A DNA stretch of 64,000 bases from assembly GCF_023715605.1 (NCBI RefSeq), contig NZ_JAMBOL010000001.1, positions 372,001 to 436,000 of the forward strand, given 5' to 3'. A program made the position numbers and the translations under genes. Positions 6,041 to 52,126 of this stretch are shown here, piece after piece (positions within the stretch are counted from its first letter, which is position 1; every line of letters starts with the position of its first letter). The notes under the pieces are model-generated. The model ran no database searches. It saw only the letters and a program-made list of their open reading frames with translations, and was not told the DNA's origin. Source of the stretch: Halalkalibacter oceani. Lineage in GTDB: Bacteria; Bacillota; Bacilli; Bacillales; Bacillaceae_D.

Positions 6041-6195
6041 GCTTGAGTCAAAACGAGCTTTGACAAGTCGGCAATGGCTTCACACGCCACAAGCCGGTTG
6101 TGAGTGGGTTTCTCACAACCGGCTTTAAAAGATCGCGGCGGCTACGTTCATTGCTTAGAGGGTGGATCTAAAGTATTTTACCTACATCACTATCT
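6041..6195 (+). repeat. Dispersed two-hairpin intergenic element, copy R1
   Basis: This copy has GCAATG (6071-6076) and GCC(AC) (6086-6090), then a perfect 14-bp hairpin (6091-6104 with 6112-6125), then GGC and CATTGC (6149-6154), which can pair back with the first segment. A degenerate second hairpin follows. Its first 80 bases are nearly the same as the copy at 51965-52126. The rest of the 370-base interval between padR and the XRE gene shows nothing else recognisable. Confidence 0.75.
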
Positions 6196-6243
6196 GAACA
6201 AATGAAAAAAGGGTAATCCGCCACTCCTGAAATATAATTCAAT

Positions 6244-6912
6244 TTAGCTATTAATATCAGATATATGGAACGGAATCAATTTATCCGATTTGTCTCCGTG
6301 CCATTTCAGCGTTATAGCATCATTTGCTACATGTTGATTAATGAAAACAGACTGGATCGCCTGAACCGTTCGCTGTGTATCAAAAATGTTGAAAATGCTG
6401 AATGACCAATTTGTTTGCACAGTTAACTTTCCATTATCATTGAAAACTAATAAATCATCCGCTACAGGTTTAAAGAACACATTTTTAGATTTTATATCTG
6501 CATGAATGGTTGTATTCCAATCTCTGTCTGGATTTTCTCCATTGTAACTAATATCCCTGATCAGATTAACATTACTTAGTTCCAGACTGTTTACATTAGC
6601 TTGAAATGATGTAGTGCTTACTAATGTATTGATTAACAATACTGCTAAAATAACTACTACACTTACTAACATCTTTTTTTGTTTAAGGCCGAAGTTTAAT
6701 TTTCGCACCATTTTCTCATCCTCTCTTAGTAAAAAATCTAAAGAAACATGAAAGCAGTCGCAAAGGACAATGACCATTTCTAAGTCCGGGTAGCTCCTCC
6801 CAGTTTCCCAACTTGATATCGTTGATCTTGACACTTGTAATTTTTCAGCTAATTGCTCTTGAGTTAAATGGTGGTCTGCTCTTAGCTTTTTGATTTTTCG
6901 TGATAAATTCAT
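6244..6912 (-). CDS. XRE-family HTH protein with a membrane anchor
   Basis: A protein of 222 residues with an N-terminal Cro/CI-type helix-turn-helix (about residues 4-60; LTQEQLAEKLQVSRSTISSWE). A single hydrophobic helix (about residues 80-100, LVSVVVILAVLLINTLV) and a C-terminal domain of about 120 residues of unknown fold follow; this domain presumably lies outside the membrane. The layout suggests a DNA-binding protein controlled from the membrane, as known for small Bacillus regulators encoded next to stress or peptide-response genes. The second of two adjacent ATG codons is used because GGAG is 7 bases before it. The coding region is visibly richer in A and T than its neighbours, a sign of acquisition. 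No partner gene is adjacent on this strand. Confidence 0.75.
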   Translation of the reverse strand: MNLSRKIKKLRADHHLTQEQLAEKLQVSRSTISSWETGRSYPDLEMVIVLCDCFHVSLDFLLREDEKMVRKLNFGLKQKKMLVSVVVILAVLLINTLVSTTSFQANVNSLELSNVNLIRDISYNGENPDRDWNTTIHADIKSKNVFFKPVADDLLVFNDNGKLTVQTNWSFSIFNIFDTQRTVQAIQSVFINQHVANDAITLKWHGDKSDKLIPFHISDINS

Positions 6913-7075
6913 CATTTGTCTCCTTTCTGAGATTAGAATATTTGAGAGTGAAGGAAATGACTAGATAAGCTCTTTCACATCCTGATTTTTTCAGAGACAA
7001 GATTCTTGTCATCGTTGATATAGCAGCGTTTCTTAACCTTTTTCTTCACAGATCAAGACAATAGTAAAAGAGCAC

Positions 7076-7175
7076 GATCCTCAAGTAGGAACAATGCTCT
7101 TCAAAAAAACCGTCTTTATTTATAGGATGGACATTTAAATACTAGGTTCCGCTTCGGGAAAGTGTCAAAATGTCC
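7076..7175. other. Hairpins downstream of the ABC exporter operon
   Basis: Two inverted repeats are visible: AGAGCA/TGCTCT around 7077-7101, and GGACATTT (7129-7136) with AAATGTCC (7168-7175) enclosing TTCC-GCTTCG-GGAA. They follow the last gene of the leftward operon and may terminate it, although T-runs are weak. The remaining sequence back to 6913 shows no gene. Confidence 0.35.
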
Positions 7176-7203
7176 GCAGGATTGGCAATGGCGCCACTTC
7201 TCA

Positions 7204-7989
7204 TCAATTCCCGGCTCCGCGGTACTTTTTCACTCCGGCGTTCCAGAGCAGGACGGAGAGCGTTAAAAAGATCACACCCATCACCGGTGTCAGAAAGGCG
7301 TACCCATACCATTCTTCCCGCTCGAGGAAATAAGCGGCCGGGTAGACGCCGACGAAGGCGAACGGCAAAATCCAAGTGAGAACGAAGCGGATGACACGGT
7401 GGTAAATGTCGACCGGGTAGCGGCCGTAGTTGCCGATGTTATACATCATCGGCATAATATCAGTGCGGCTGTCCGACCAGAAGCTGATGCTGGCAATTGA
7501 GATAAAAATACCAGCGTAAATTAGCGTGCCACCGCCGACCATTGCAATAAAGACGAGCGCGTCATACCAGGCAAAGGACAAACCGAGAGTTGATCCGGCG
7601 TAGAGCATGATCACAATCCCGGTAATCACGCCGAATAACGATTCAAGCTCCATCCTTTCCAAAATAATTTGAAACAGGCTGTAAATCGGTCTTGTCAGCA
7701 CCCGGTCGAATTCGCCTTTGACAATGTAGCGCTCATTGAAATCCCAAATGTTGAAAAACGCGCTAAAGAAGGCGTACGGGACGAGAAAAAAGCCATAAAT
7801 AAAGATGATTTCCTCCCGGTTCCAGCCACTTAACAAAGTAGTATGGCCGAAGACGACTAAAATAAAGACAAAGTTAACCGCTTGAAACAATAAGTCCGAA
7901 AAAATTTCAACAACCGTATCGACGCGGTACGTGAGCCGCGTTTTTAAATATTGTGAGGCATATTGAAAGAAAATCGATAAATAGAACAT
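7204..7989 (-). CDS. ABC-2 type exporter permease (DUF990 family)
   Basis: A 261-residue membrane protein with about six hydrophobic helices, the second permease of an ABC-2 exporter. It resembles the paired DUF990-type permeases common in Bacillales and actinomycetes. Features include the N-terminal YLKTRLTYRVDTVVEI segment, a cytoplasmic DFNERYIVKGEFDRVLTRP stretch, and IYAGIFISIASISFW. The start ATG has AGGAGGT seven bases upstream and lies 3 bases after the stop of the sister permease. With the ATPase gene it forms a three-gene operon (8781-9791, 7993-8784, 7204-7989). The substrate is unknown; drug, lipid or polysaccharide export are all possible. Confidence 0.82.
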   Translation of the reverse strand: MFYLSIFFQYASQYLKTRLTYRVDTVVEIFSDLLFQAVNFVFILVVFGHTTLLSGWNREEIIFIYGFFLVPYAFFSAFFNIWDFNERYIVKGEFDRVLTRPIYSLFQIILERMELESLFGVITGIVIMLYAGSTLGLSFAWYDALVFIAMVGGGTLIYAGIFISIASISFWSDSRTDIMPMMYNIGNYGRYPVDIYHRVIRFVLTWILPFAFVGVYPAAYFLEREEWYGYAFLTPVMGVIFLTLSVLLWNAGVKKYRGAGN

Positions 7990-7992
7990 CAG

Positions 7993-8784
7993 CTAACCTC
8001 CTTGCACGATCAGCTGTTTTTTCGCCAACATCCATAAAAGCTGAAGCGGGATCAGCAAAACCACTGCCCAAAACGCTTGCAGCATGAGGGCGGTATACAT
8101 TTCATTGCCGCTGAATCCTTCAGTGAAAATCATGCTTGGAATATAGCTGATCGCCTGAAATGGCAAATACATCATGACCGACTGGGCCCACAGCGGATAA
8201 AAAGAAATCGGGAGAAGCAGGCCGGAAAATAAATCAATCACGACTCGTTTCGCGCGAATCAAGCCCGAATTATTAAATAAGAAAAACGTTAAAATCCCCG
8301 TCAGCAAATTGATTTGTGTGTTGACAATAAAGCTGAACAGCAGAGAAACGAAAAAGAAGAGCCATGTCGTCGCGCTGGCGGAAAAGCTGACCGGAAACAG
8401 CAAAGCGACGATCACCATTCCGGGCACGGAAAAGAATAACAGACGAAAGATGCCTTCGCCGAGCGCCTGCATCGTTTTCATCCCTAAATAGTTGTAGGGC
8501 CGGATCATTTCAATCGCGACTTTCCCTTCTTTAATCTCCATCGCAATCTCGCGGTCGATATTATTGAAATAGAAGGCGCGCGCCATCCAGGCTACGGCGA
8601 TATAGGTCGTCATCTGCAGCACGCTCAGTCCTTCAATGTCTTCCTTGCCGCCATAAATCGCTGTCCATAAAAAGTAATAGGCGGCGATATTAATGCTGTA
8701 GATTAAAATGCCGCTATAATAATTTGTCCGGTAGGCGAGCATCATCAAAAAGCGGATCCGAATCATTTCAATATAGGAATTCAT
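7993..8784 (-). CDS. ABC-2 type exporter permease (DUF990 family)
   Basis: A 263-residue membrane protein, the first permease of the exporter operon. It has about six membrane helices. Its MAMEIKEGKVAIEMIRPYNY-like cytoplasmic segment corresponds to the GEFDRVLTRP segment of its partner, which shows that the two permeases are distant paralogues forming a heterodimer. The ATG overlaps the TGA of the ATPase gene (ATGA), implying translational coupling. Confidence 0.82.
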   Translation of the reverse strand: MNSYIEMIRIRFLMMLAYRTNYYSGILIYSINIAAYYFLWTAIYGGKEDIEGLSVLQMTTYIAVAWMARAFYFNNIDREIAMEIKEGKVAIEMIRPYNYLGMKTMQALGEGIFRLLFFSVPGMVIVALLFPVSFSASATTWLFFFVSLLFSFIVNTQINLLTGILTFFLFNNSGLIRAKRVVIDLFSGLLLPISFYPLWAQSVMMYLPFQAISYIPSMIFTEGFSGNEMYTALMLQAFWAVVLLIPLQLLWMLAKKQLIVQGG

Positions 8785-9791
8785 GAGATCGCCATTCCTT
8801 CTTCATAAATCTTGCGGATCATTTCCTCTGTTGACACTTTGTTCATGCGGACATTGCTGATCGGATTAGCCTCAATAACGGTGCTGATCAGCTTTGATAC
8901 AGCGCGCTCATCGCCATTCAACTGAGCGAGCCACGTCGTTGCGTCTTTCTGTTCCCAGTAGACTTGCGGAAGCTGGGGCAGATTGGCAGCCGCGACGGGT
9001 TCAATAAACTCGAACTCGACCTGCTTCCCTTCGACCGCCCCGGCCTGAAGCTGATCAAGTCGCCCGTCATAGACGATTTTTCCTTCATCGAGGAGCACAA
9101 CCCGTTCACACAGCGCTTCGATGTCACTGAGATCGTGCGTAGTCAATAAAATCGTCGTATTGTACGTTTCATTGATTTCCTTTAAAAATTCCCGGATTTT
9201 CAGCTTGACGAGCACATCAAGCCCGATTGTCGGCTCATCCAAAAAGAGGAGCGGCGGGTTATGGATCAGGGCGGCGGCTAATTCACAGCGCATGCGCTGG
9301 CCGAGAGAAAGCTTGCGGACCGGCTTGTCCAGCAACGGCCCGATGTCCAAGGTTTCAATCACATGGCTCATATGCGAGTTGTAATCTTCATCAGAGACAC
9401 GGTACACCTTCTTTAACAGCCTGAAAGACTCCTGCACGGCAATATCCCACCAGAGCTGAGAGCGCTGGCCGAAGACAACACCGATTGTCCTGACGAATTG
9501 TTCACGCTCTTTGTGCGGATTCATCCCATTCACGAGCACGGTGCCTGATGTCGGCGTCAGGATGCCTGTCAGCATTTTGATCGTCGTTGATTTACCTGCC
9601 CCGTTTTCGCCGATATAGCCGACCATTTCCCCCTGCTTAATCGTTAAGGAAATATCATCGACGGCAGCCATCACCTTATAATTCCGCGTTAATAAATCGC
9701 GAAAGGCGCCAGTCAGCCCGGAGCGGCTCGAATACGATTTAAACTCTTTTCGTAAATTAGTAACCTGTATAATATTTTGCTTGATGTCCAT
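8781..9791 (-). CDS. ABC exporter ATP-binding protein (DrrA/CcmA type)
   Basis: A 336-residue ATPase that energises the two downstream permeases. Walker A is GENGAGKST, the signature motif is KLSLGQRMR, Walker B is LLFLDEPTIGLD, and the switch His lies in TTHDLSDIEAL. The extra C-terminal region after residue ~240 is typical of DrrA-like exporters. An N-terminal sequence of about 20 residues (NLRKEFKSYSSRSG) precedes the core. It is the first gene of the operon; the upstream region contains a hairpin-rich repeat but no clear promoter. Confidence 0.88.
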   Translation of the reverse strand: MDIKQNIIQVTNLRKEFKSYSSRSGLTGAFRDLLTRNYKVMAAVDDISLTIKQGEMVGYIGENGAGKSTTIKMLTGILTPTSGTVLVNGMNPHKEREQFVRTIGVVFGQRSQLWWDIAVQESFRLLKKVYRVSDEDYNSHMSHVIETLDIGPLLDKPVRKLSLGQRMRCELAAALIHNPPLLFLDEPTIGLDVLVKLKIREFLKEINETYNTTILLTTHDLSDIEALCERVVLLDEGKIVYDGRLDQLQAGAVEGKQVEFEFIEPVAAANLPQLPQVYWEQKDATTWLAQLNGDERAVSKLISTVIEANPISNVRMNKVSTEEMIRKIYEEGMAIS

Positions 9792-9904
9792 TTCTCTTCC
9801 TCCAAGCTCTTACTCTATTAAAACAAAGTATAGTTTACCTCTAAGGAAGGATGACAGCAAGCATCTGGCCCGATTCCGTGACGATCGGACAAAACTTGGC
9901 GGCA

Positions 9905-10003
9905 TATAGCAGCAATCGCTTTCCTCATAACGGGCTTTAAAAGATAGTAACGCTTGTCCAGCTGAGGGGCCGGGCAAAAGGCAACAACCTTTGACCCGGC
10001 CCC
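9905..10003 (+). repeat. Dispersed intergenic element, degenerate copy R6
   Basis: The sequence AACGGGCTTTAAAAGAT matches the middle of copy R2, but the 5' arm of hairpin 1 is missing. Hairpin 2 is intact: GGGGCCGGG (9966-9974) pairs with CCCGGCCCC (9995-10003) and encloses AAAAGG and CCTTT. It may serve as a terminator for the gene at 10038-10433. Confidence 0.55.
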
Positions 10004-10037
10004 GCTGAAACGGCCCATACTGATTCAGATTGGCATG

Positions 10038-10433
10038 TTACTGATTCTTCCACATAAGGTAGCGATACCGGATCGTGCAGCCGATGCAGAAGCCGAAAAG
10101 AGCAAGGAGTGCAGCTGCCGCGACGGCAATGCCAAAAAATAGAGTGAGTAGACCAGCGTTTAAAAGAGAACTGATTAACGCCAGCCCGAGGCAGATCGTC
10201 GCGATCCACTGGTTGAAGAGCTGCTGCTGACGGTCCTCCTGAATATAGGAAAATAGAGGCTTTCTCAGAAAAGGTCTTGTGACTTCAATTAGTGGATTGC
10301 GCTTTCTCAGCAGAGTAATGACGCCATTCAGAAAAGGAAGCAGCAAGATCCAGTGTGAAAAAATCAGACCGGCGGTAACGGTGATCACGATAAAAAGCTG
10401 GTTCAATTGGACGAGAGGTTTTGGAATGCCCAA
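10038..10433 (-). CDS. DUF4395 family membrane protein
   Basis: A 131-residue protein with an N-terminal PKPLVQLNQLFIVI motif, three to four hydrophobic segments and a C-terminal FCIGCTIRY motif. The NQ(x)n...CxGC pattern is that of the DUF4395 family. The paired cysteines near the C-terminus, in or near the last helix, might bind a metal or form a disulfide. Function is unknown. The gene follows the Na/Pi transporter gene on the same strand after 39 bases, so the two may be co-transcribed. Confidence 0.75.
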   Translation of the reverse strand: MGIPKPLVQLNQLFIVITVTAGLIFSHWILLLPFLNGVITLLRKRNPLIEVTRPFLRKPLFSYIQEDRQQQLFNQWIATICLGLALISSLLNAGLLTLFFGIAVAAAALLALFGFCIGCTIRYRYLMWKNQ

Positions 10434-10472
10434 GATGTCACCTCCTTATGATTGTCTGGTTTGACTGTCTCG

Positions 10473-11402
10473 CTAACGGAGATCAGCATGCAGCCACTCG
10501 ATAAAGCGGGTAAATGGTGTGACGAAAAATAGCATAACGAGAGAACAAACGACATTAAAGATTAAACTCGCATGCGCCAGCTGCATCATCGGTGTTGAAG
10601 TAAGGCTGCTGGCAAGTTCACCGAGCCAGCCGATTAAAGGAAGAAACAGGAGCACACCAAGTACATTTAACCAGATGTTAGCATAGGCGACCTGCTTTGC
10701 GTTTTTACCAGAACCGATACTGGCGAGATAGGCGGTGATACATGTGCCGATGTTTGCGCCGAGCATAATGGCAATGCCGGCCGACAGTTCCAGCAAATGA
10801 TCATTCATGAACCCCATCGCGATAGCGGTAGTCGCCGTGCTTGATTGAATCAGCGCCGTCAGCACAGTGCCGATGCCGATACCTAACAGCTCGTACTCAT
10901 TCGTTAAGTCAAAAAACGCATGGACAAACGGGATCGTTGCCAGCGGATAGGCGAGCTGCTCCAGTCCGTTCATGGAAATAAAAATACAGGCAAGGCCAAA
11001 AAACAAGCAGCCAAATGAGTAAGCGTTAGAATGAGGCAACAGCAAAAAAAGCAAGCCTAAAAGCAGGAGCGGCCCAATGAAGAGGGTAAGGTCAAGTGCC
11101 AGCAGCTCGGTTGTCATCGTCGTGCCGATATTCGCTCCGAGGATGATGCCGATTGAGTTTCGGAAGCTGAGCAAGCCGGCAGCGACAAGGCCGACCGTCA
11201 TCACCATAATCGCCGAGCTGCTTTGCAGAACCGCTGTCGCGAAAGCCCCGATTAAGAGCCCCATCCAGGCTGTGCGCGTCATCCGTTCAAGCAGGGATTG
11301 AAACCTGCTTTTTCCCAGGTGCAGCAATCCGGCGCGCATCACAGTCATCCCAAATAAAAATAAAGCAATAAAAACAGCAAGCAAGGAAAATAACTCTTTC
11401 AT
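10473..11402 (-). CDS. yqeW: Na+/phosphate cotransporter family protein (YqeW-like)
   Basis: A 309-residue membrane protein with two inverted Na/Pi cotransporter repeats. The first carries GAFATAVLQSSSAIMVMTVG and GANIGTT; the second carries TALIQSSTATTAIAMG and GANIGTC. The QSSS/QSST and GANIGT motifs are the hallmark of the NptA/type II Na/Pi family and form the substrate site. It lacks the C-terminal PhoU domain seen in the second member of this family at 62668. The ATG at 11402 has AGAGGTGA eight bases before it; upstream codons in frame have no ribosome binding site. B. subtilis yqeW lies next to rpsU-yqeY as here, although here it is divergent from rpsU. Confidence 0.85.
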   Translation of the reverse strand: MKELFSLLAVFIALFLFGMTVMRAGLLHLGKSRFQSLLERMTRTAWMGLLIGAFATAVLQSSSAIMVMTVGLVAAGLLSFRNSIGIILGANIGTTMTTELLALDLTLFIGPLLLLGLLFLLLPHSNAYSFGCLFFGLACIFISMNGLEQLAYPLATIPFVHAFFDLTNEYELLGIGIGTVLTALIQSSTATTAIAMGFMNDHLLELSAGIAIMLGANIGTCITAYLASIGSGKNAKQVAYANIWLNVLGVLLFLPLIGWLGELASSLTSTPMMQLAHASLIFNVVCSLVMLFFVTPFTRFIEWLHADLR

Positions 11403-11586
11403 GACGCCACTCACCTCTCTCTTCACTCTATGGACAATCGCTGACAAGCATGACAAAAAAGGAAAAAAATCTATGAAGCAGCGAATGGAAGGAGCGGCGC
11501 GAAAAAAGATATTATTTTACTCACGAATAAAAGGGAGATAAAGATGATGAAATCGCCTTTTTTTTCGCTTATTTCCTGATTTTAAG

Positions 11587-11615
11587 TTGACCAGCATATC
11601 TCTCTATATTATAAT
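11587..11615 (+). promoter_or_regulatory. Promoter of rpsU-yqeY
   Basis: TTGACC (11587-11592) and a perfect TATAAT (11610-11615) are separated by 17 bases, a strong vegetative promoter suited to a ribosomal protein gene. Confidence 0.85.
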
Positions 11616-11620
11616 GCTAT

Positions 11621-11648
11621 AAGACGTGCATGAAGAGGTGTATGTCTT
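11621..11648 (+). promoter_or_regulatory. 5'-terminal leader hairpin of rpsU
   Basis: AAGACGTGCA (11621-11630) pairs along its whole length with TGTATGTCTT (11639-11648, two G-U pairs) around an eight-base loop. The predicted transcript start is about 11622, so the hairpin would form the very 5' end of the mRNA, where such structures stabilise transcripts or bind a repressor. Confidence 0.55.
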
Positions 11649-11679
11649 GAGTTGGTTGTTTCGGAGGGAGGGAAATATA

Positions 11680-11853
11680 ATGGCAGAAACTCGTGTTCGC
11701 AAAAACGAATCGATTGATGCTGCACTTCGTCGCTTCAAGAGATCACTCTCTAAAGAAGGAACGTTGGCTGAGGTTAAAAAGCGCAAGCACTACGAAAAGC
11801 CGAGTGTGAAACGCAAGAAGAAATCTGAAGCAGCAAGAAAACGTAAGTTCTAA
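11680..11853 (+). CDS. rpsU: 30S ribosomal protein S21
   Basis: A 57-residue, highly basic ribosomal protein that binds the 30S platform near the anti-Shine-Dalgarno region and aids initiation. It has the family sequence [20 protein letters not shown] and the lysine/arginine-rich tail ending RKRKF. The ATG at 11680 is preceded by GGAGGGAGG. An in-frame extension upstream lies in the leader and is not expected to be translated. yqeY follows 20 bases later. Confidence 0.97.
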
Positions 11854-11873
11854 TTGGTGAGAGGGTGTTTCCA

Positions 11874-12317
11874 TTGAATCTTCTTGAACGTTTAAATCAG
11901 GATATGAAGACTGCGATGAAGAACAAGGAAAAGCAAAAACTCTCGGTCATCCGTATGGTAAAGTCGTCGTTGCAAAACGAGCAAATTAAGCTCGGACGTG
12001 AGTTGACAGACGATGATAGCCTTACGGTGCTTAATCGCGAACTGAAACAACGCAAGGATTCCCTCCATGAGTTTGAACAAGCAAACCGTGAAGATTTAGC
12101 TTCCAAGCTACGTGATGAAATTACTGTGCTTGAAGACTATATGCCAGAGCAGCTTTCTGATGAAGAGGTTTCGCAGATCGTTCAAGCAACGATTAAGGAA
12201 GTCGGAGCTACCACCAAAGCAGATATGGGTAAGGTCATGGGAGCAATCATGCCGAAGGTTAAAGGAAAAGCTGATGGTGGTCTTGTGAATCGTCTCGTGC
12301 AACAACACTTATCATAA
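11874..12317 (+). CDS. yqeY: GatB/Yqey-domain protein YqeY
   Basis: A 147-residue soluble helical protein homologous to the C-terminal YqeY domain of the GatB subunit of amidotransferases, which binds tRNA. Motifs include [31 protein letters not shown] and [21 protein letters not shown] near the C-terminus, conserved for tRNA-elbow contacts in GatB. The start is taken as TTG at 11874 because family members begin directly at LLERL and a GGTGAGAGG lies upstream; a GTG three codons earlier overlaps that site. Its place behind rpsU is conserved in Bacillales. Its own role is not established. Confidence 0.92.
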
Positions 12318-12324
12318 CATATGA

Positions 12325-21353: not shown

Positions 21354-23396
<2,043 letters not shown>

Positions 23397-23400
23397 GCAA

Positions 23401-23437
23401 AAACGCCACAGGGCGCCCTATCCCTGTGGCGTTTTTG
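23401..23437 (+). terminator. Rho-independent terminator of era
   Basis: AAACGCCACAGGG (23401-23413) pairs perfectly with CCCTGTGGCGTTT (23422-23434), followed by further Ts. It is copy 1 of a repeated sequence. Confidence 0.9.
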
Positions 23438-23862
23438 TCGAAGAGCGAGCGAAGCCGGCGCCAGATTTTAAAGGGGAGAAGCGTTTTTCTTCTTCCCGCG
23501 CGCTGCGAAGCCGCTCCCAATTCAGAAACAGGGCGCCCTATCCCTGTGGCGTTTTTGCCGAAGAGCGAGCGAAGCCGGCGCCAACTCGAAAGTGAAAAAG
23601 ATGGCAGCGGCTTCGTTCTGCGCAAAGCCTGTACCAAAGTAAGACGCTTTGGTACAGGCTGTAAAACATCGGCGCAGACTTCGCACGCTGCTTCAAGCCT
23701 GAAAAAAGGTGAAAACCAACCTTTTTATCTCAGGCTTGCGCCGCGGAGCCGCTCCCAATTCAGAAACAGGGCGCCCGATCCCTGTGGCTTTTTGGTCTAA
23801 GAGCGAGCGAAGCCGCTCCCAATTCGGAAACAGGGCGCCCGATCCCTGTGGCGTTTTTGCCT
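23404..23862 (+). repeat. Four-copy array of terminator-like repeats
   Basis: The sequence CAGGGCGCCC(T/G)ATCCCTGTGGC followed by TTTTT and GAGCGAGCGAAGCCG recurs at about 23409, 23529, 23767 and 23831. Copies 3 and 4 are exact 64-base tandem neighbours; copies 1 to 3 are separated by unrelated hairpin sequence including element R4. The joining sequence GAAGCCGCTCCCAATTC also recurs three times. Copies have accumulated few differences, so the duplication is recent. Confidence 0.85.
23600..23740 (+). repeat. Dispersed two-hairpin intergenic element, copy R4
   Basis: GCAGCG (23604-23609) pairs with CGCTGC (23686-23691) and CTGCGC (23618-23623) with GCGCAG (23672-23677), leaving an internal loop GCTTCGTT / ACTTCGCA. 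Inside is a perfect 14-bp hairpin (23626-23639 with 23647-23660). A second hairpin (AAGCCTGA 23695-23702 with TCAGGCTT 23730-23737) follows, enclosing AAAAGGT and ACCTTTTT. The stems differ from R3 by compensating changes while the loop is the same. Confidence 0.8.
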
Positions 23863-29894: not shown

Positions 29895-30036
29895 GAGAAT
29901 GGCAATGGCTCCGTTCGCTACTCGACTAGAGAGGAGAACTTCACTCTTCTCTAGTCTTTTACATACTGTAGCGACTCCGCACATTGCTTCGGGCTTGCTC
30001 CAAAAGGTAAATTTCAACCTTTCGGAGCAAGCCCTT
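29895..30036 (+). repeat. Dispersed two-hairpin intergenic element, copy R3
   Basis: GCAATG (29902-29907) pairs with CATTGC (29982-29987) and CGCTAC (29916-29921) with GTAGCG (29968-29973) around the loop GCTCCGTT / ACTCCGCA. Inside is a 13-bp hairpin (29924-29936 with 29944-29956). Hairpin 2 pairs GGGCTTGCTCC (29991-30001) with GGAGCAAGCCC (30024-30034) and encloses AAAAGGT and AACCTTT. The remaining sequence to 30284 is AT-rich and shows only a weak sigma-B-like pair (GTTTTT 30159, AGGTAT 30180). Confidence 0.8.
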
Positions 30037-44486: not shown

Positions 44487-44487
44487 A

Positions 44488-45513: not shown

Positions 45514-45514
45514 G

Positions 45515-45600
45515 GAAGGCAACGGCTTTTATAAAATCAGGCGCGCACTTCGCACACTGCTTAGAGAGGGTGACCTAAAAGATCTTAGGTCACCCTCTTT
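45515..45600 (+). repeat. Dispersed element, shortened copy R5, with terminator
   Basis: GGCAACGGCTT is joined directly to ACTTCGCACACTGCTTAGAG, so hairpin 1 has been deleted. Hairpin 2 (AGAGGGTGACCTAA 45565-45578, TTAGGTCACCCTCT about 45585-45598) is perfect and followed by T's, and acts as terminator for the transglycosylase and ppk genes. Confidence 0.7.
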
Positions 45601-47721
45601 TCAGTCGTCTTCTCCTTCGCTGAAGCGGGCGGCCTGTTCGTAGAAGTAAAGCTGGCTCTGGATCGGCTGTTCATGTGGGAGCCGCTTGATGTATTGATAG
45701 GTGCCGTCCTTCATTTGTTCGCGCGCTTTCGTATTATCCTGCAAGGTGACTTTAAAGATTTCTTTGATGCGCTTTTTGCTTTGTTCATTGAGGACCGGAA
45801 ACAAAATTTCAATCCGCTTTTCCATATTGCGCGTCATCCAGTCGGCCGATGAGAGGAAAATCCGTTCCTCTCCACCGTGGTGGAAATAAAAGATCCGGCT
45901 ATGCTCAAGAAAGCGGTCAACGATGCTGCGGACGCGGATGTTTTCACTGACACCGGGGATTCCCGGACGGAGGCAGCATATACCGCGGACAATCAAGTCA
46001 ATTTGGACACCGGCCTGGGAGGCTTCATAGAGCTTCAAAATAATCGGCTTATCGGTCAGTGAATTCATTTTCGCCATAATCCTTCCCTGGCCACGCTCCT
46101 GATGCACTTCAATTTCCCGGTCAATCAATTCGAGAAATTTTTCCCTGATTTCAAAAGGAGCGGTCGATAAATGGTACCAGGCGGGTTTTTCACTATATCC
46201 GCTTAAATAATTAAAAAAGTTTGTCGCATCAATGCCGAACTGCTCATCAGCGGTAAAAATCCCCATGTCGGTATAGAGCTTGGCTGTTGAATCATTGTAA
46301 TTACCTGTGCCAAGATGGACAAAGCGCTGAATCCGGTCGTTCTCATGGCGGACGACAAGCGTGATCTTGCTGTGGGTCTTGAGCGAGGTGATGCCGTAGA
46401 TGACATGAACGCCTGATTTTTCAAGCTTCTTCGCCCATTGAATATTATTTTCCTCATCGAAGCGCGCCTTCAGCTCGACGAGTACCGTCACCTGCTTGCC
46501 ATTTTCGGCGGCAAGCGCCAGGGCATGAATGATTGGCGAGTCGCCGCTGACACGGTAAAGCGTCTGCTTAATCGCCAGCACCTGCGGATCTTCAGCCGCA
46601 AGGGAGATAAAGTCAACGACAGGCTGGAACGATTCATATGGATGATGTAAAAAAATATCCTTTTTCAAAATAGCCTGGAAAATATTTTCTTCCCCAATTA
46701 AATCCTCCGGTGTTTGCGGAATCAGGTTTTCATTGGCGAGATGCTCATGCCAGGCGGCGAGCTTTTGGTAAAGCTTAAACAAGAACGTCAAATCGATCGG
46801 CCCTTTAAAGGAATAGACGTCGTCCTTATGAATTTCAAGCACATCAAGCAGCAGGTTAAGGACATTGGGGTCCATCATCCCTTCTTGCATTTCAAGGCGG
46901 ACGGCCGCTCCCCATTTCCGCTTCTTCAATTCCTTTTCTATTTCCAGCAGCAAGTCCCGTGAGCTTTCCTCATGAATCGTTAAGTCGGCATTTCTTGTGA
47001 TCCGGAATGAAGAAACGGATTTTACATGAAAGCCGGTAAAAAGCTCACCGATAAAATGGCTGATCACATTTTCCAGTAAAATAAGCTGTTCAACACCTTC
47101 CGCTGACGGCAGTTGGATAAAACGGTTTAAGACAGCAGGGACTTGGACAATCGCCAGCTGGTTCTTTTCCTGACGTTTGCTATCCTCTGATTTACTAAGG
47201 ACAACGGCGAGATTGAGACTTTTATTTAACAGCATTGGGAAAGGGCGGTACGCGTCAATCGCCATCGGCGTAAGCACGGGAAAGATATAATGATGAAAAC
47301 GATCGCGCAGGAATTCAATCTGTTCCGGCGTGCATTCGTCAATCGAGAGGAACTGAAAGCCGGCATGATATAGCATCGGCACAATCGTTTCCGTATAGAC
47401 AGAATCCTGCAGACGGACAAGCTCATGATTCTTTTCAGAGATCTTCTTCAGCTGCTGCTTCGGTGTGAGGCCTGCTTTATTTTCAGGGCGGTTGAAGCCG
47501 GCTTTAACCTGATCCTTCAGGCCGGCGACCCGTACCATAAAAAATTCATCGAGATTTGAACTGAAAATGGCCAGAAATTTCAGCCGTTCCAAGAGAGGAT
47601 TACGTTCATCAATCGCTTCTTCAAGCACGCGCTCATTAAAGGCGAGCCAGCTTAATTCACGATTGTTGTAATAATTGGGGTTGTTGAGGTCAATCGGGTT
47701 TTGGTTTGTTTGCTCTGTCAT
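45601..47721 (-). CDS. ppk: Polyphosphate kinase 1
   Basis: A 706-residue enzyme that makes polyphosphate from ATP. It has the N, H, C1 and C2 domains of PPK1. The autophosphorylated His lies in RFVHLGTGNYND, with the second essential His in FLEHSRIFYFHHGG; the N-terminus ELSWLAFNERVLEEA is also diagnostic. The ATG at 47721 is favoured over one two codons upstream by spacing to AGAGG. ppx lies immediately upstream on the same strand, so synthesis and breakdown genes are linked. B. subtilis has no ppk here. Confidence 0.94.
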   Translation of the reverse strand: MTEQTNQNPIDLNNPNYYNNRELSWLAFNERVLEEAIDERNPLLERLKFLAIFSSNLDEFFMVRVAGLKDQVKAGFNRPENKAGLTPKQQLKKISEKNHELVRLQDSVYTETIVPMLYHAGFQFLSIDECTPEQIEFLRDRFHHYIFPVLTPMAIDAYRPFPMLLNKSLNLAVVLSKSEDSKRQEKNQLAIVQVPAVLNRFIQLPSAEGVEQLILLENVISHFIGELFTGFHVKSVSSFRITRNADLTIHEESSRDLLLEIEKELKKRKWGAAVRLEMQEGMMDPNVLNLLLDVLEIHKDDVYSFKGPIDLTFLFKLYQKLAAWHEHLANENLIPQTPEDLIGEENIFQAILKKDIFLHHPYESFQPVVDFISLAAEDPQVLAIKQTLYRVSGDSPIIHALALAAENGKQVTVLVELKARFDEENNIQWAKKLEKSGVHVIYGITSLKTHSKITLVVRHENDRIQRFVHLGTGNYNDSTAKLYTDMGIFTADEQFGIDATNFFNYLSGYSEKPAWYHLSTAPFEIREKFLELIDREIEVHQERGQGRIMAKMNSLTDKPIILKLYEASQAGVQIDLIVRGICCLRPGIPGVSENIRVRSIVDRFLEHSRIFYFHHGGEERIFLSSADWMTRNMEKRIEILFPVLNEQSKKRIKEIFKVTLQDNTKAREQMKDGTYQYIKRLPHEQPIQSQLYFYEQAARFSEGEDD

Positions 47722-47843
47722 TCGCATTCAACCTCTCTACTCTCTAAATTCATCTTTGCCAGTAAGGGAAGACAAGTCCTGTGATTGACGTACGGGACTA
47801 ATGTCTTACCCTTTCATTTTAACAGTTGATTGTAAATTTTATG

Positions 47844-49403
47844 TTAAGATTCGGCTTTCAATGCATCACTAGAGAGATACGTTAACGTTAATGGTCGGCG
47901 AATTGCTTTTTCGAGATGTTTTTTATGTTTCTGCGCTTGAAGCTGTTCAAAATGGGCATCCTCCTGGTAGAAGAGGGGAAGGGCCAGCTGCCCGTCTTCA
48001 TCGGCGCGCCGGCCGACTTCGACAATCGTTTTTCTTCTTGTACGATCGAGGCAAAAAGCGAGCTTCATAATCGCTCCTAAAAACTCATACAGCTTCAGCC
48101 GCTTTTTATCGAGCAGATTTTTGAACGGCTTGGCGTATTTCAACAGCTGCGACTTTGATTTGAAGGACGAAATAAAGGCAATCGCCAGCCGCTCCTGATG
48201 GGACAGACCTTCAATTGTCATATTTGTTAATAAGTAAAACGTATTTTGACTGCTTGCTTCGCTGTTGATAAATTCTCCAATATACAGCACGCGCGCGCTT
48301 TGACGCAGGAGCTGCAGCGCTTCGTTGCGCTGGTGACTCACCTGACATTGATCCGCAAGCTCGGCGTACAGCCTTGTTGCCAAATAAGAAATATGGTTGG
48401 CATGGTCAAGATTAACCTCATAGCTATGGGACAATTGATAAAAGCTTTCCTCGGCGACGTTCGGAAAACAGGCCGTATCCATCGTCCGCAGCAGTTCTTC
48501 ATAAAAGATTCCGTCACGCAGCCCTTTCCGGCTCATGACAAATGTTTTTGCCTGAACGAGCTCGACGAGCGAAGCAATGACTTCAGCCGCCGGGACGATA
48601 ATATCAGCGCGGTCTTTCGAGAGGCCATCGATCGTCAGCCTTTCCTGATACGAAAGGGTAGCGAGTGCGTCCGTTAGTTGGCGCAGTTCCTTCGTCGGCA
48701 GCTCATATTGGTGCAGGCCGGCTAGCGGGTACTCTTTTTGCCGTTGATGGATCAACGATAAGTTCCGGGCGCTGCCGCCAATCCCGATCACTGGATAGTC
48801 GGGGTATTCGTGCAGCCAGGAGAGGCTGGAAAGCTGGGAGCGGATATACGCCTTGATCGTTTGCAGCTCTTCTTCCGTCGCTTCACAGCCGGAAATGAAC
48901 TGCTGCTTTAACGTGATCGCCCCGAACGGGAAGCTGTGATAGTGGCGCAGTTCACGGTCTTGAAACAAGGTGATTTCTGTACTTCCGCCGCCGATGTCAA
49001 TCGTGATGCCGTCGGTAATGTTTGTGGAGTTGACGACGGCTAAGTAGCCGTAAAAGGCTTCCTCATATTCTGACAGAATGCGGATTTCGAAGCCGAGCCG
49101 TTCGTAGACAAGCTCGGTGATTTCTTTCCGGTTGGTCGCTTTTCTCATGGCGGCCGTCGCGACTGCCGTGACTTTCTGGACCTGGTGAAAGAGCAGAACT
49201 TCCTTGAAGCGGGTTAAGGTTTCAAGCAGAATCCTGGTTCCTTCCGTCGTAAATGCTCCTTTTTCATCCATATGGGCACTTAGACGGGCAACGGTTTTGT
49301 AGTTATGTAATTCCTTATAGCAGCCGTTATGATCGATTTGGTTAATTACGAGCCGAATCGAGTTCGAGCCGATATCAATAACGGCAAAATCATTTTCAAT
49401 CAC
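47844..49403 (-). CDS. ppx: Exopolyphosphatase / guanosine pentaphosphatase (Ppx/GppA)
   Basis: A 519-residue enzyme of the Ppx/GppA family that releases phosphate from polyphosphate and may hydrolyse pppGpp. The ASKHA phosphate loops are AVIDIGSNSIRLVI and ITIDIGGGSTEITLF. A C-terminal HD-like domain (~310-500) gives the long form. The start is a GTG behind GGAGATG. It precedes ppk by about 120 bases on the same strand. Confidence 0.92.
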   Translation of the reverse strand: MIENDFAVIDIGSNSIRLVINQIDHNGCYKELHNYKTVARLSAHMDEKGAFTTEGTRILLETLTRFKEVLLFHQVQKVTAVATAAMRKATNRKEITELVYERLGFEIRILSEYEEAFYGYLAVVNSTNITDGITIDIGGGSTEITLFQDRELRHYHSFPFGAITLKQQFISGCEATEEELQTIKAYIRSQLSSLSWLHEYPDYPVIGIGGSARNLSLIHQRQKEYPLAGLHQYELPTKELRQLTDALATLSYQERLTIDGLSKDRADIIVPAAEVIASLVELVQAKTFVMSRKGLRDGIFYEELLRTMDTACFPNVAEESFYQLSHSYEVNLDHANHISYLATRLYAELADQCQVSHQRNEALQLLRQSARVLYIGEFINSEASSQNTFYLLTNMTIEGLSHQERLAIAFISSFKSKSQLLKYAKPFKNLLDKKRLKLYEFLGAIMKLAFCLDRTRRKTIVEVGRRADEDGQLALPLFYQEDAHFEQLQAQKHKKHLEKAIRRPLTLTYLSSDALKAES

Positions 49404-49515
49404 ACCATTTCATCTCCTAACTGAGATCACGTTACAAAGAGCAATGTGTTCCATTAATAAAAGAGGTAACTTCTTCTCTCATTATAACAAAAACAGCAAT
49501 TCATGTGCGGCTGAC

Positions 49516-49543
49516 TGGACAGAACGAGAAATTCGATTATAAT
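49516..49543 (+). promoter_or_regulatory. Promoter of the zinc uptake operon
   Basis: TGGACA (49516-49521), a 16-base spacer and TATAAT (49538-49543) drive the znuC-znuB-zur genes. A Zur-box-like sequence is located just downstream. Confidence 0.65.
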
Positions 49544-49561
49544 GAGAAAAGATATTCGTTT

Positions 49562-49582
49562 AAATCGTAATGATTCTTATGA
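49562..49582 (+). promoter_or_regulatory. Zur box
   Basis: AAATCGTAATGATT is an exact match to the left arm and centre of the Bacillus Zur operator (AAATCGTAATNATTACGATTT); the right arm is degenerate (CTTATGA). It lies at the expected transcription start of the zinc operon, so zinc-bound Zur would block it. Confidence 0.65.
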
Positions 49583-49613
49583 GAATCAGAATGGAAATAA
49601 AGAGGGTGGTACT

Positions 49614-50375
49614 ATGGAGGAAGTCGTAGCGATTCACGATGTTTCCTTTCATTATGGAAATCGGAATGTGCTGGAAAACATTTCGTTAACGGTTGAGAAA
49701 GGGGCTTTTTTAGGCCTTGTCGGACCGAATGGATCGGGAAAGTCGACGCTGATCAAACTGATGCTTGGTTTGCTTGAGCCGCAACAAGGTGAACTGCGCC
49801 TGTTTGGCAAGCGTGTCGATAAATTTAAGCATTGGGATAAGATCGGCTTTGTCTCACAAAAAGCGAACAGCTTCAATTCCGGTTTTCCGGCAACCGTTTA
49901 TGAGGTTGTTTCGATGGGGTTATATGGAAAGGTCGGCTTGTTTCGTTTTTTGAATAAGCATCATAAGGAAAAAGTGTACGAAGCCGTCGAGCAGGTCGGC
50001 ATGACAGAGTACCTTCATCAAAATATTGGCGAGCTTTCAGGCGGGCAGCAGCAGCGTGTGTTTATCGCGCGTGCTTTGGTGAGCGATCCGGAGCTGCTTA
50101 TTTTAGACGAGCCCACTGTCGGTGTCGATGTGTCGAATGTCCGCCAGTTTTACGGGTTGCTTGAGGAATTAAACAGGGCTAGAGGCATGACGCTGATTAT
50201 GGTTACCCATGATATTGGCGCGATGACTGATCATGTGACGGATGTAGCCTGCTTGAACAAGCATTTGCATTTTCACGGGAATACAGCTGAATTCACTGCA
50301 AACCAGGATTTGTCCTCCTTTTACGGCCATGATGTCCATCTGCTCTCCCATAATCATAGTCATGGAGGTCATTAA
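49614..50375 (+). CDS. znuC: Zinc ABC transporter ATP-binding protein
   Basis: A 253-residue ATPase. Walker A is GPNGSGKST, signature ELSGGQQQRVFIARAL, Walker B LLILDEPTVGVD. The C-terminal tail is rich in His (HDVHLLSHNHSHGGH), typical of AdcC/ZnuC zinc ATPases and presumably metal-binding. The ATG at 49614 follows GAGGGTGG. znuB follows 3 bases later. The substrate-binding protein gene (znuA/adcA) is not next to it and must be elsewhere. Confidence 0.88.
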   Translation: MEEVVAIHDVSFHYGNRNVLENISLTVEKGAFLGLVGPNGSGKSTLIKLMLGLLEPQQGELRLFGKRVDKFKHWDKIGFVSQKANSFNSGFPATVYEVVSMGLYGKVGLFRFLNKHHKEKVYEAVEQVGMTEYLHQNIGELSGGQQQRVFIARALVSDPELLILDEPTVGVDVSNVRQFYGLLEELNRARGMTLIMVTHDIGAMTDHVTDVACLNKHLHFHGNTAEFTANQDLSSFYGHDVHLLSHNHSHGGH

Positions 50376-50378
50376 CAA

Positions 50379-51236
50379 ATGCTTGATGCGTTTTTACGAT
50401 ATGAATTTCTTCAGAATGCGCTATTTACAGGAATGATGATCGGCCTTCTTGCGCCGATGCTCGGTGTTTTTCTAATGGTCAGACGGCTGGCTCTGATCGC
50501 TGATGCATTGTCGCATATTACGCTTTCGGGCATCGCCGCAAGCCTTTTGCTCGGCAAGCATGTTGCTTTTTTTCAAGGGATGAATCCATTGTATATGGGG
50601 ATGGTCTTTTCAGTCGGCGGTTCTCTCTTGATTGAGCAGCTGCGGAGCGTGTACAAGTACTACAAGGAAATCGCGATCCCGATTATTTTGTCGGCGGGTA
50701 TCGGACTTGGCGTCGTGTTCATTTCTCTGGCCGACGGCTTTAATAATGATTTATTCAATTATTTATTTGGCAGCGTGATTGCTGTCAGCCGTTCAGACCT
50801 TTGGACGATCAGTGTTATTACAGTTATCGTTCTGATTGTGCTACTATTGTTTTATAAAGAGCTGTTCTTTCTGTCATTCGATGAGGAGCAGGCGGTGGTC
50901 GCCGGCTTGAACCGAAGACTGATTCATTTTATTTTTATTGTGATGGTCGCGCTTGTGATCGCGGCTTCGATGAGAATTGTCGGCATCTTACTTGTTTCGT
51001 CATTAATTACGTTACCTGTGGCCGCGGCGATGCGCCTCGCGAAAGGGTTTAAGCAAATGTTTATCTATTCGGTCATTTTTGGCGAGATCGCAGTCATTGG
51101 TGGTCTGATTTCGGCTTTTCAGCTGGACGTTGCTCCCGGAGGAATGATCGTCATGATCGCGGTGATCATTCTGCTGGTGACCATTTATGCGCAAAAGGCC
51201 TGGAGAAAGCTCAGCAGCCATTTGTACAGCTCGTAG
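50379..51236 (+). CDS. znuB: Zinc ABC transporter permease
   Basis: A 285-residue ABC-3 family permease with about eight membrane helices. Recognisable motifs are MLGVFLMVRRLALIADALSHITLSGIA, GLNRRLIHFIF and LLVSSLITLPVAAAMRLAKGFKQ. It moves Zn(II) (or Mn) into the cell with the ATPase. The gene is followed by zur, 12 bases later. Confidence 0.9.
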   Translation: MLDAFLRYEFLQNALFTGMMIGLLAPMLGVFLMVRRLALIADALSHITLSGIAASLLLGKHVAFFQGMNPLYMGMVFSVGGSLLIEQLRSVYKYYKEIAIPIILSAGIGLGVVFISLADGFNNDLFNYLFGSVIAVSRSDLWTISVITVIVLIVLLLFYKELFFLSFDEEQAVVAGLNRRLIHFIFIVMVALVIAASMRIVGILLVSSLITLPVAAAMRLAKGFKQMFIYSVIFGEIAVIGGLISAFQLDVAPGGMIVMIAVIILLVTIYAQKAWRKLSSHLYSS

Positions 51237-51248
51237 GGAGGTTTGGAC

Positions 51249-51665
51249 ATGAAGAATGTGAATGAAGCAATGGAACGATTGAAGGAAAAAGGATACAAGC
51301 ATACAGGGAAGCGCGAGGATATGCTGAAGCTGTTTGCTGATGAGAAGCGGTATTTATCGGCAAAAGAAGTGCTGGAGTCGATGCAGGGAGATTACCCGGG
51401 GATGAGCTTTGATACGATTTATCGCAATTTATCGCTGTTTACAGAAATGGAAATTCTCGAAGCGACTGAACTCGAAGGGGAGAAACGGTTCCGGTTCAGC
51501 TGTTCGACCGACGAGCATCATCATCATTTAATCTGCCTCGATTGTGGTGCGACGAAGCATATTCACAATTGTCCGATGGATATGCTAAAGGCGACATTTC
51601 CTGATTTCGAGGTGACGGGCCATAAGTTTGAAATCTATGGAAGATGTGAACAGTGTCAAGAATAG
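51249..51665 (+). CDS. zur: Zinc uptake regulator Zur (Fur family)
   Basis: A 138-residue Fur-family repressor. The N-terminal winged helix (KGYKHTGKREDMLKLF, DTIYRNLSLF) is followed by the metal-sensing domain with STDEHHHHLICLDCGATKHIHNCPM and a C-terminal GRCEQCQE; four cysteines (two CxxC-type pairs) form the structural zinc site. It is the third gene of the operon, which it most likely represses. The ATG at 51249 has GGGAGG seven bases upstream. Confidence 0.92.
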   Translation: MKNVNEAMERLKEKGYKHTGKREDMLKLFADEKRYLSAKEVLESMQGDYPGMSFDTIYRNLSLFTEMEILEATELEGEKRFRFSCSTDEHHHHLICLDCGATKHIHNCPMDMLKATFPDFEVTGHKFEIYGRCEQCQE

Positions 51666-51738
51666 CTTCTTAAAATCCCAAGTGTTGGCTCGGGTAGGCG
51701 GTGGCGAATTCATCCATCCTAACAGTAGGAGGGGATGA

Positions 51739-51963
51739 ATGATGGCAAAACCACTTGTGAAATGTAATGTGGCAAACTGTACCTTTTGGGGAGAAGGAAA
51801 CAAATGTCAAGCCGAAGCGATCCTTGTTGAGATTGACGCCAATTCAACGGCTGATTTCAACATGGAGGCGGGAGCTGAACCTTACGGCGAGGCGGAATAC
51901 CATCATGAAGCAACACAGAAAAAAGAAACATGCTGCCATACCTTCCGGCCAAAGGATGAATAA
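51739..51963 (+). CDS. DUF1540 protein, cysteine-rich
   Basis: A 74-residue protein. It has the DUF1540 pattern: CNVANCTFW, GEGNKCQAEAILVE, and a C-terminal ETCCHTFRPKDE. The paired cysteines suggest a small zinc-binding protein, perhaps linked to zinc status given its position 73 bases after zur. AGGAGGGG precedes two ATG codons; the first is used. The element R2 follows. Confidence 0.82.
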   Translation: MMAKPLVKCNVANCTFWGEGNKCQAEAILVEIDANSTADFNMEAGAEPYGEAEYHHEATQKKETCCHTFRPKDE

Positions 51964-51984
51964 GCTTGAGACAAAACTAGCTTT

Positions 51985-52126
51985 TAACCTATTGGCAATG
52001 GCTTTACACGCCACAAGCCCGTTGTGAGAAATCCACTCACAACGGGCTTTAAAAAGATCGTGGCGGTTTCGCTCATTGCTTAGAGGCTGGCAAAAGGTAA
52101 AAAAACAACCTTTTGTCCCAGCCTCA
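51985..52126 (+). repeat. Dispersed two-hairpin intergenic element, copy R2
   Basis: GCAATG (51995-52000) pairs with CATTGC (52074-52079), and GCCAC (52010-52014) with GTGGC (52060-52064), leaving 9-base internal loops. Inside, a perfect 14-bp hairpin (52015-52028 with 52036-52049) differs from that of R1 by one compensating pair change. Hairpin 2 (GAGGCTGG to CCAGCCTC, 52083-52125) encloses CAAAAGGT and ACCTTTTG and reaches the end of the yqfW gene. Confidence 0.85.

Follow-up and report, generated by a model that had tools for sequence, protein, structure and literature searches.

Dispersed two-hairpin repeats with a covarying core in Halalkalibacter oceani, best read as MITEs of the stem-loop-inserting kind

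The window analysed here, a stretch of 64 kb from the genome of Halalkalibacter oceani (G000), contains several intergenic repeats that share a plan of two adjacent hairpins. An earlier note on this DNA listed four good and two degenerate copies and took the paired changes in their stems as the mark of a selected RNA or single-stranded DNA structure, not of a decaying transposon. The repeats thus raise the question whether they are structured RNAs or mobile DNA, and why their stems change in pairs. According to our best reading they are IS1182-type MITEs, of an already described kind that inserts at stem-loops; their conserved core covaries and did not turn up in those insertion sequences that were examined.

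Copies in the window

The covariance model R1 was used for locating the cores. All four good copies (R1 to R4), which score 85–97 bits, belong to its training set; the cores were confirmed where the earlier note had placed them. The following features were recognised.

6039..6156, plus strand: copy R1, subfamily A (sequence); core at 6068-6156, 88.3 bits with model R1
6039-6054, plus strand: left end of R1, GAGCTTGAGTCAAAAC (sequence)
9905..10008, plus strand: degraded copy, inner-hairpin remnant and 3′ hairpin (sequence; comparison with sister species G008)
23440..23520, minus strand: additional copy (model R1, 46.2 bits, E 1.3e-9)
23601..23693, plus strand: R4 core, second stem CTGCGC/GCGCAG (model R1, 85 bits)
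23694..23738, plus strand: R4 3′ hairpin (sequence and fold)
29899..29989, plus strand: R3 core, B type (model R1, 97.1 bits)
29990..30034, plus strand: R3 3′ hairpin (sequence; alignment with G008)
45515..45605, plus strand: degraded copy with a 14-bp 3′ hairpin (sequence and fold)
51962..51977, plus strand: left terminal repeat of R2, AAGCTTGAGACAAAAC, in a 164-bp unit (sequence)
51992..52081, plus strand: R2 core, subfamily A (model R1, 93.4 bits)
52082..52125, plus strand: R2 3′ hairpin, end of the unit (sequence and fold)

The minus-strand copy is extra to the first list. The DNA folds of the R1–R4 pieces were better than those of 200 out of 200 dinucleotide shuffles (z −4.4 to −10.1), and the weaker fold of the 9905 piece was equalled by 2 of 200. 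Both degenerate copies stand as remnants by sequence and fail by the model, which returned nothing up to E 10 for the 9905 copy and 14.5 bits (E 0.24) for 45516-45562. At the place matching the 9905 copy, G008 carries a full subfamily-A copy in opposite orientation. R4 is absent from G008 along with neighbouring repeats. R3 is located downstream of a ppsR-like gene, its left end was not recognised, and a different copy occupies the matching place in G008; in the alignment every outer-stem letter of its 3′ hairpin differs there. The right terminal repeat of R2 is the outer arm TTTTGTCCCAGCCTC of its 3′ hairpin. A second hairpin enclosing AAAAGGT...ACCTTTT had been ascribed to all good copies, which does not hold for R1, whose 3′ hairpin is degraded. 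The paired difference between the inner stems of R1 and R2 (GCCGG../..CCGGC vs GCCCG../..CGGGC) and the three interchangeable versions of the second stem (GCCAC/GTGGC, CGCTAC/GTAGCG, CTGCGC/GCGCAG) are indeed present. No Rfam family reached its gathering score in the window, in agreement with the earlier note, which named no family with this loop.

Core fold and covariation

The core is built of three helices, in which all 25 pairs covary among 130 distinct sequences, and an unconstrained fold of 14 copies yielded the identical plan. The shared plan, the covarying stems, the kept loops and the intergenic setting described earlier are all borne out. The internal loop GCTYCGTT/ACTYCGCA is kept as well, although it is mostly paired and not open as proposed: columns 13-147, 14-146, 18-141 and 19-140 pair within it, the latter two pairs covary, and only a 3x3 loop TYC/TNC is left unpaired. 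This loop, an AAMCCCA apex and a TTTWAAA stretch are the conserved features of the core. The covariation of this dispersed repeat is strong, yet it need not indicate a functional RNA, a caution that holds for covariation in dispersed repeats as such.

Paired changes could also originate from correction or inversion between the two arms (template switching, recombination) or from exchange of whole hairpins, instead of from selection on the fold. In 43 copies of subfamily A all 13 two-sided changes retain pairing, including swaps from C-G to G-C and from T-A to A-T, the one-sided changes show no wobble preference (G.T 5, A.C 8), and 6 of the copies have the apical loop in inverted form, as such a process would produce. 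Furthermore, at places that correspond in G008 the 3′ hairpin can differ as a whole (R3; C80:56404), which represents exchange of hairpins, and for this part of the second hairpin the claimed pairwise change of stem bases does not apply. Nevertheless, in the outer and second stems, which are short and far apart, all 12 pairs have changed on both sides; these stems are interrupted by the kept 3x3 loop and by unpaired 3′ sequence, neither of which is self-complementary, and the loops are maintained across families. We therefore regard arm correction or hairpin exchange as a rather doubtful source of the covariation as a whole.

Unit ends, IS1182 relation and insertion sites

A complete unit of about 165 bp begins with a terminal repeat of 16 bp, followed by a short linker, the folded core of 85–90 bp and a 3′ hairpin; the outer arm of this hairpin serves as the second terminal repeat. 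Seventeen subfamily-A units of 155–168 bp, being those among 88 copies that passed the end pattern, have the same two outer ends and different flanks. With up to 8 mismatches in 32 allowed, both ends were IS1182-like in 32 of the 88 copies from H. oceani and in 29 of 50 picked other copies, and in none of 40 shuffles per copy; matching ends are absent in the remaining 56 and 21 copies, respectively. Some genomes with the element also harbour intact insertion sequences of IS1182 type, and the ends of these are of the types seen on the elements; five transposases scored above the NCBIfam IS1182 cut-off. In genome G285 the resident insertion sequence has two unequal ends, CCCATAAG and CTCAAAAG, and the elements carry both in the same order. 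The insertion sequences of G421 (L217) and G025 (L210, L222) have ends that differ from those of the elements.

PF13751 and NF033551 served as IS1182 markers, while PF05598 was dropped because G000 has no match to it. PF13751 was detected in 13 of 16 element-bearing genomes. G000 itself has one weak PF13751 match and no NF033551 match at E≤1e-20. Within the order sample IS1182 genes occur in 11 of 19 genomes with the core vs 192 of 378 others, i.e. without association with the core.

Comparison of the 17 subfamily-A sites with G008 revealed clean replacement at three of them (C36:359893, C47:89812, C124:17489). Here folding of the G008 sequence gives a plain hairpin of 38–44 bases with its feet exactly at the ends of the unit, and no target duplication was seen at these three sites. 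The other 14 comprise one site with one foot exact, one hairpin with diverged flanks, six sites shared in some form and six unclear ones. The unit ends, their likeness to IS1182 and the plain hairpins are direct observations, and the verdict "not a decaying transposon" is not supported: a subset of the copies is bounded by transposon ends, some of them where the sister species has a plain hairpin, and single copies do decay, with A.C mismatches about equal to G.T.

We consider it probable (roughly 60%) that the elements represent MITEs, a form of non-autonomous mobile DNA, and that those with complete ends have been moved by IS1182-family transposases. An inserting unit would take the place of a stem-loop already there, in many cases a terminator, with the feet coinciding and no duplication of the target, and its own 3′ hairpin, if it terminates transcription, could substitute for the lost one. 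Such swapping of terminator hairpins for transposon ends bears on the evolution of gene 3′ ends in Bacillales. Against this reading speak the lack of association between IS1182 genes and the core, the scant marker matches in G000, the copies without matching ends, the 14 sites without clean replacement, and the core itself: it was not found in the insertion sequences searched, and a MITE with terminal repeats should not need a covarying one. Its fold may be kept since mobile copies need folded DNA, with the inserted copies left to decay.

The end types flanking the core vary (GAGGCTGGGACAAAA, GGGGCTGTCYCAWAAG, GAGGCCACTGAAAAA, and GAGTCTGTTCAAAAAG in A. deserti), whereas the core plan is constant. 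Model R1 located no core in 16 loci, ten of them IS1182 loci, and a derivation of the interior from an IS1182 insertion sequence is not supported; what the two have in common is limited to the ends and a few letters next to them (ACTAGC). Tentatively, and with more doubt than confidence, we suggest that the core is a portable recognition module of folded DNA, of which the fold rather than the letters has persisted through five families and through at least three types of IS1182-like ends. If so, a DDE transposase or a partner protein would read a defined single-strand or cruciform structure, and structure-dependent transposition would have left a record of covariation that can be tested pair by pair. 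The previously unexplained hairpin repeat becomes a testable case of structure-guided transposition: more than 100 copies are present in a single genome, the sister species shows plain hairpins at three corresponding sites, and the conserved parts of the fold are defined.

The same constancy of the core amid changing ends and its absence from the insertion sequences examined would also fit a core that is a small mobile element in its own right, mobilised by an enzyme acting on folded DNA and captured repeatedly inside IS1182-type MITEs. Many copies indeed consist of a core without left end, and their 3′ hairpins vary from copy to copy. Thirteen sites with copies lacking the left end or otherwise atypical were chosen, nine of which were aligned to G008, and only C102:70568 looks empty among these nine. 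G008 has no recognisable core there and an 84-aa ORF crosses the place, while in G000 a core without 3′ hairpin replaces about 31 bases without evident hairpin, a possible core-only insertion. The enzyme is hypothetical, and with a single site of this kind we judge an independent element unlikely. Under the MITE reading the copies without left end may be old, or may have moved by another route.

Genomic setting, spread and known systems

The H. oceani genome yielded 145 matches at E≤1 and at least 133 copies at E≤1e-4, a lower bound from 150 scored candidates. Within Bacillales the element is patchy, occurring in 19 of 397 genomes, 9 of 135 genera and 5 families, and eight cores from two other families are 89–92% identical to the subfamily-A consensus. 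Further copies elsewhere in the genome and in relatives, as a test of the earlier note, were thus found. Some alkali-loving relatives of Bacillus carry hundreds of scattered copies near gene ends. Arrays of elements and one nested copy were also seen.

Plasmids gave no match for two element queries and phages none for one. Plasmid matches of two short hairpins were only short terminator-like palindromes (seven of the places inspected), and three pattern matches in viral contigs were taken as chance, the rest of the core being absent from the printed sequence. No description of these repeats was found in the open-licence papers searched.

Location at gene 3′ ends was observed directly: 76 of 84 copies adjoin at least one such end (a raw count without background rate), and no ORF of more than 250 aa spans any of the 84. 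The copies show no preference for a strand or a gene class; between tandem genes 18 are sense and 27 antisense. An RNA role is not supported: among stem mismatches G.T is only slightly commoner than A.C (66 vs 51 overall), which leaves little preference for wobble pairs, and orientation between tandem genes is mixed; a cis-acting RNA is disfavoured by the same tests. Of the earlier alternatives the RNA has no support from these tests, while single-stranded or cruciform DNA may still apply. Rfam offers no family above threshold in the window, and the one match at E≤1 in loci L002–L004 is a sub-threshold mir-5736 (31.5 vs 90 bits). That each copy is a structured RNA in its neighbour's transcript (terminator, stabiliser or regulator) and has spread incidentally is very improbable on these grounds, even though conserved loops with covarying stems, the hairpin on the 3′ side, proximity to the 3′ ends of genes and the lean of the outer stem alone to G.T (22 vs 8 A.C) would fit it.

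As for identity with a described repeat, the kind is known, a MITE entering stem-loops having precedents in IS1272 and EFAR, which reportedly integrates at stem-loops and deletes them. The bcr1 repeat makes a target duplication; none was seen at the three clean sites here.

IS1272 replaces inverted repeats without duplication (PMC5678879), and TnSha1/IS1272 insert at terminator hairpins, where the stem-loop is lost bluntly (PMC4923244). The elements resemble these IS1182-family members in their IS1182-type ends, in the replacement of stem-loops or terminators and in the lack of duplication; unlike them, they are non-coding and have an internal folded core absent from the examined insertion sequences. 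PMC2267715 describes EFAR (Enterococcus faecalis repeats, there Efa-1) as intergenic pairs of adjacent hairpins of about 163–170 bp, and PMC3733652 terms EFAR a MITE. By description, EFAR is similar in size (155–168 bp here), in the two adjacent hairpins and in intergenic place. The one E. faecalis plasmid stretch searched showed no conserved TYC/TNC loop core, although a single stretch says little. Likewise compared by description, bcr1 of the Bacillus cereus group is a short, structured, mobile intergenic repeat (PMC2267715). A GTAG-type tag at the core foot, a trait of REP/BIME with their RAYT (Y1) transposase, was not noticed by eye in the core alignments. BOX, RUP and SPRITE of Streptococcus pneumoniae are modular hairpin repeats that cluster, insert into each other and have terminator-like parts (PMC10969869); by description, the arrays and the nested copy here are similar, and the difference lies in the IS1182-type ends of the present elements.

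Copies in the window and spread of the repeat

A covariance model of the 85-90 bp core (model R1), trained on 14 copies of the core all taken from the Halalkalibacter oceani genome under study (G000), was run over the window with filters off. The four good copies R1-R4 were confirmed in the sequence and by the model where the earlier note had placed them. Besides these, the scan gave a fifth copy and opposite-strand shadows of R1-R4, all else having E ≥0.04.

Cores found in the window by model R1
6068-6156, core of R1
23601-23693, core of R4
29899-29989, core of R3
51992-52081, core of R2
23440-23520, minus strand, fifth copy

The two degraded copies at 9905 and 45515 are visible by eye but were undetected by the model, and the second hairpin claimed to be common to the good copies is degraded in R1. 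R4 is surrounded by degraded modules related to it, most of them in minus-strand orientation; about 250 bases of this array (23385-23860) are absent in G008, the genome of a sister species.

The genome-wide search proposed in the earlier note yielded at least 145 core matches at E ≤1 and at least 133 at E ≤1e-4 in G000 (4.47 Mb, 124 contigs), scoring being capped at 150 candidates, and the core was found in further genera and families. All 13 genomes of the genus have matches at E ≤1e-4 (1 to at least 149 per genome, likewise capped), and in the family the core is present at E ≤1e-5 in 15 of 41 genomes and two of seven genera. An even sample of the order, for which the best 10 candidates per genome were taken with stricter filters so that weak or rare cases may escape, showed it in at least 19 of 397 genomes, 9 of 135 genera and 5 families. 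The exact core pattern of the B type (R3, R4; no left end) occurs in 36 stretches of named genomes, namely six Halalkalibacter species, Alkalihalobacillus deserti and Metabacillus arenae. A pair of copies spaced by 245 bases is common to G008 and an H. oceani stretch. The consensus of subfamily A, the type of R1 and R2, is 89-92% identical to eight cores of G089, G084 and G205 from two other families, and 73% and 69% identical to single cores of G421 and G081, respectively; matched pieces of G000 and G002, a genome of the same genus, are 67-78% identical over the stretch tested. Judged from these sequences, the high core identity between families would fit horizontal movement. In several genomes core and hairpin are repeated in tandem about every 115-132 bases (loci L111 2369-2696, L155 1259-1798 and L193, G000 C28:87120-87476).

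Covariation and decay of the core

Two-sided changes were found at 25 of 25 core pairs in 139 matches (130 distinct), with 94.1% of 3,110 cells pairing and a covariation score of 0.656 (shuffled 0.19, slid 0.08-0.12); this alignment was fitted to the model and is biased towards its plan, and the shuffle controls ignore relatedness. When 14 copies were aligned with MAFFT, independently of the model, the same folded plan emerged, with both sides changed in 19 of 28 predicted pairs. The covarying stems described earlier are upheld. The internal loop does keep its bases but is smaller than described, as columns 13-147, 14-146, 18-141 and 19-140 pair, the last two with covariation. TYC opposite TNC remains; among 130 sequences 125 have the T and 118 the C on the 5′ side, and on the 3′ side the figures are 120 (T) and 117 (C). 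Conservation extends to AAMCCCA at the apex and to a TTTWAAA stretch on the 3′ side. Of the 43 subfamily-A copies, these being the copies among 88 extracted with consensus length and >80% identity, 6 carry the apex in inverted form.

A copy acting as RNA should tolerate G.U and not A.C. Stem mismatches over the 130 sequences comprised 66 G.T and 51 A.C, and the lean towards G.T was confined to the outer stem (22 vs. 8). Among the 43 subfamily-A copies one-sided stem changes gave 5 G.T, 8 A.C and 14 others, all 13 two-sided changes retained pairing, and change per site was half as frequent in stems (0.026) as in loops (0.052). Inserted copies thus decay with little regard to wobble and pairing is maintained in lineages, which implies that source copies are selected or that the arms correct one another.

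Usable flanks were available for 84 copies (88 extracted, 97 listed, at least 145 matches). With genes taken simply as the longest ORFs, the raw counts are 31 copies with convergent neighbours, 18 tandem sense, 27 tandem antisense and 8 with divergent neighbours; no ORF >250 aa spans any of the 84. Loci L012, L013, L014 and L015 (G000) and L085 (H. oceani) hold copies in what we take to be the 23S-5S rRNA spacer, antisense to both genes; their cores are near-identical, and the 3′ hairpin stem varies between operons. At L076 a sequence presumably resembling a thiamine riboswitch leader lies downstream of the copy at 9806-9895.

Ends and insertion sites

The outer ends of subfamily A are constant, GAGCTTGAGACAAAAC on the left and TTTTGTCCCAGCCTC on the right; 17 of 88 copies passed the end pattern, and in these the ends lie 155-168 bp from each other. 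Similar ends are found on IS1182-type insertion sequences of G154 (AGAGGCTGGGACATAAC/AGAGGCTGGGACAAAAC), G205 (GAGGCTGGGACATAACT/GAGGCTGGGACAAAACT), G285 (GGGGCTGTCCCATAAG/GGGGCTGTCTCAAAAG) and, for a single end, G081 (CCGAGGCCACTGAAAAA), all of them element-bearing genomes. When both ends were scored against four IS1182-type pairs, ≤8 mismatches in 32 were found for 32 of the 88 own copies and for 29 of 50 others (hand-picked from the 139 matches), a score that no shuffle (40 per copy) reached. The resident insertion sequence of G285 has two unequal ends, which recur on the elements in the same order. The left end is mostly 11-12 bases from the core in two types; the gap is narrower in the G346/G285 type (3-5 bases) and wider in the fourth (22-33 bases).

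Seventeen subfamily-A sites were compared with G008, whose identity to G000 was about 90% across a tested stretch. At three of them (C36:359893, C47:89812, C124:17489) G008 carries a plain, nearly fully folded hairpin of 38-44 bases with its feet at the ends of the unit, and no duplication was seen at these clean sites. C47:362491 has an exact left foot and a diverged right flank, and at C36:496521 the hairpin is present with diverged flanks. Six sites are common to G008 in some form (C80:74033, C49:19026, C29:75886, C47:408506, C69:88792, R2) and six gave no clear reading (C124:108161, C36:300084, C22:102581, C47:72229, C47:433451 and C46:19315, for which the flanks have two matching locations separated by 13 kb). 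The mode seen at the clean sites is that described for IS1272, of which three newly arisen insertions took the place of inverted repeats of 22-30 bp without duplication (PMC5678879), and for TnSha1 (PMC4923244).

In G008 the inner hairpin of the C29:75886 copy (locus L231, C67:9970-10562) harbours another element, which has the ends AGGCCACTGAAAAAC and a core of its own. The direct repeat TCACAACG stands on both sides of this element, so elements with a different end type may produce duplications. One copy in L116 (H. urbisdiaboli, near 6445-6586) has within its inner hairpin a GGCACTGAAAAAGG palindrome, which is surrounded by a near-perfect 9-base direct repeat.

B-type copies consist of core and a 3′ hairpin that varies from copy to copy; at two matching sites (R3, C80:56404) the entire 3′ hairpins differ between G000 and G008. 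Of 13 sites of left-end-less or atypical copies asked in G008, nine were aligned, with the core wholly or partly common to most. At C102:70568 no core can be recognised in G008, where an 84-aa ORF spans the site; the G000 copy, without 3′ hairpin, stands in place of about 31 bases without evident hairpin. This is what would be left by an independently moving core, a single case and not proof.

Relation to IS1182-type elements

The repeat works like a stem-loop-replacing IS1182 MITE, a non-autonomous mobile element, whose ends and insertion mode were found in a subset of copies only; matching ends are missing in over half of the own copies. An interior derived from an IS1182 insertion sequence was not found: model R1 detected no core in 16 loci, ten of them IS1182 loci. 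IS1182 genes showed no association with the core in the order sample (11 of 19 core genomes, 192 of 378 others), and no good IS1182 gene was found in G000, a draft in 124 contigs from which repeats may be missing. Five transposases passed the NCBIfam IS1182 cut-off, and PF13751 is present in 13 of 16 element-bearing genomes asked. The earlier note had seen a selected RNA or single-stranded DNA structure and not a decaying transposon. The covarying stems are upheld. The IS1182-type ends and hairpin replacement in a subset speak against the exclusion of a transposon, and decay with little regard to wobble speaks against the RNA; single-stranded DNA may still apply. The kind of element is already known; new is a covarying core maintained in many families.

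On a Sutcliffiella horikoshii plasmid (L260, 1354-1521) a roughly 165-bp unit is bounded by AGAGGCTGGGACATAAC / TTTTGTCCCAGCCTCT and contains an inner hairpin, but model R1 finds no core in it. On Lactobacillales plasmids, solo palindromes of IS1182-like arms (..CTGGGACA..TGTCCCAG..) directly follow genes (L165 1628-1669, L257 1499-1540, L258 1503-1542), as if they were minimal end-to-end elements that might act as terminators.
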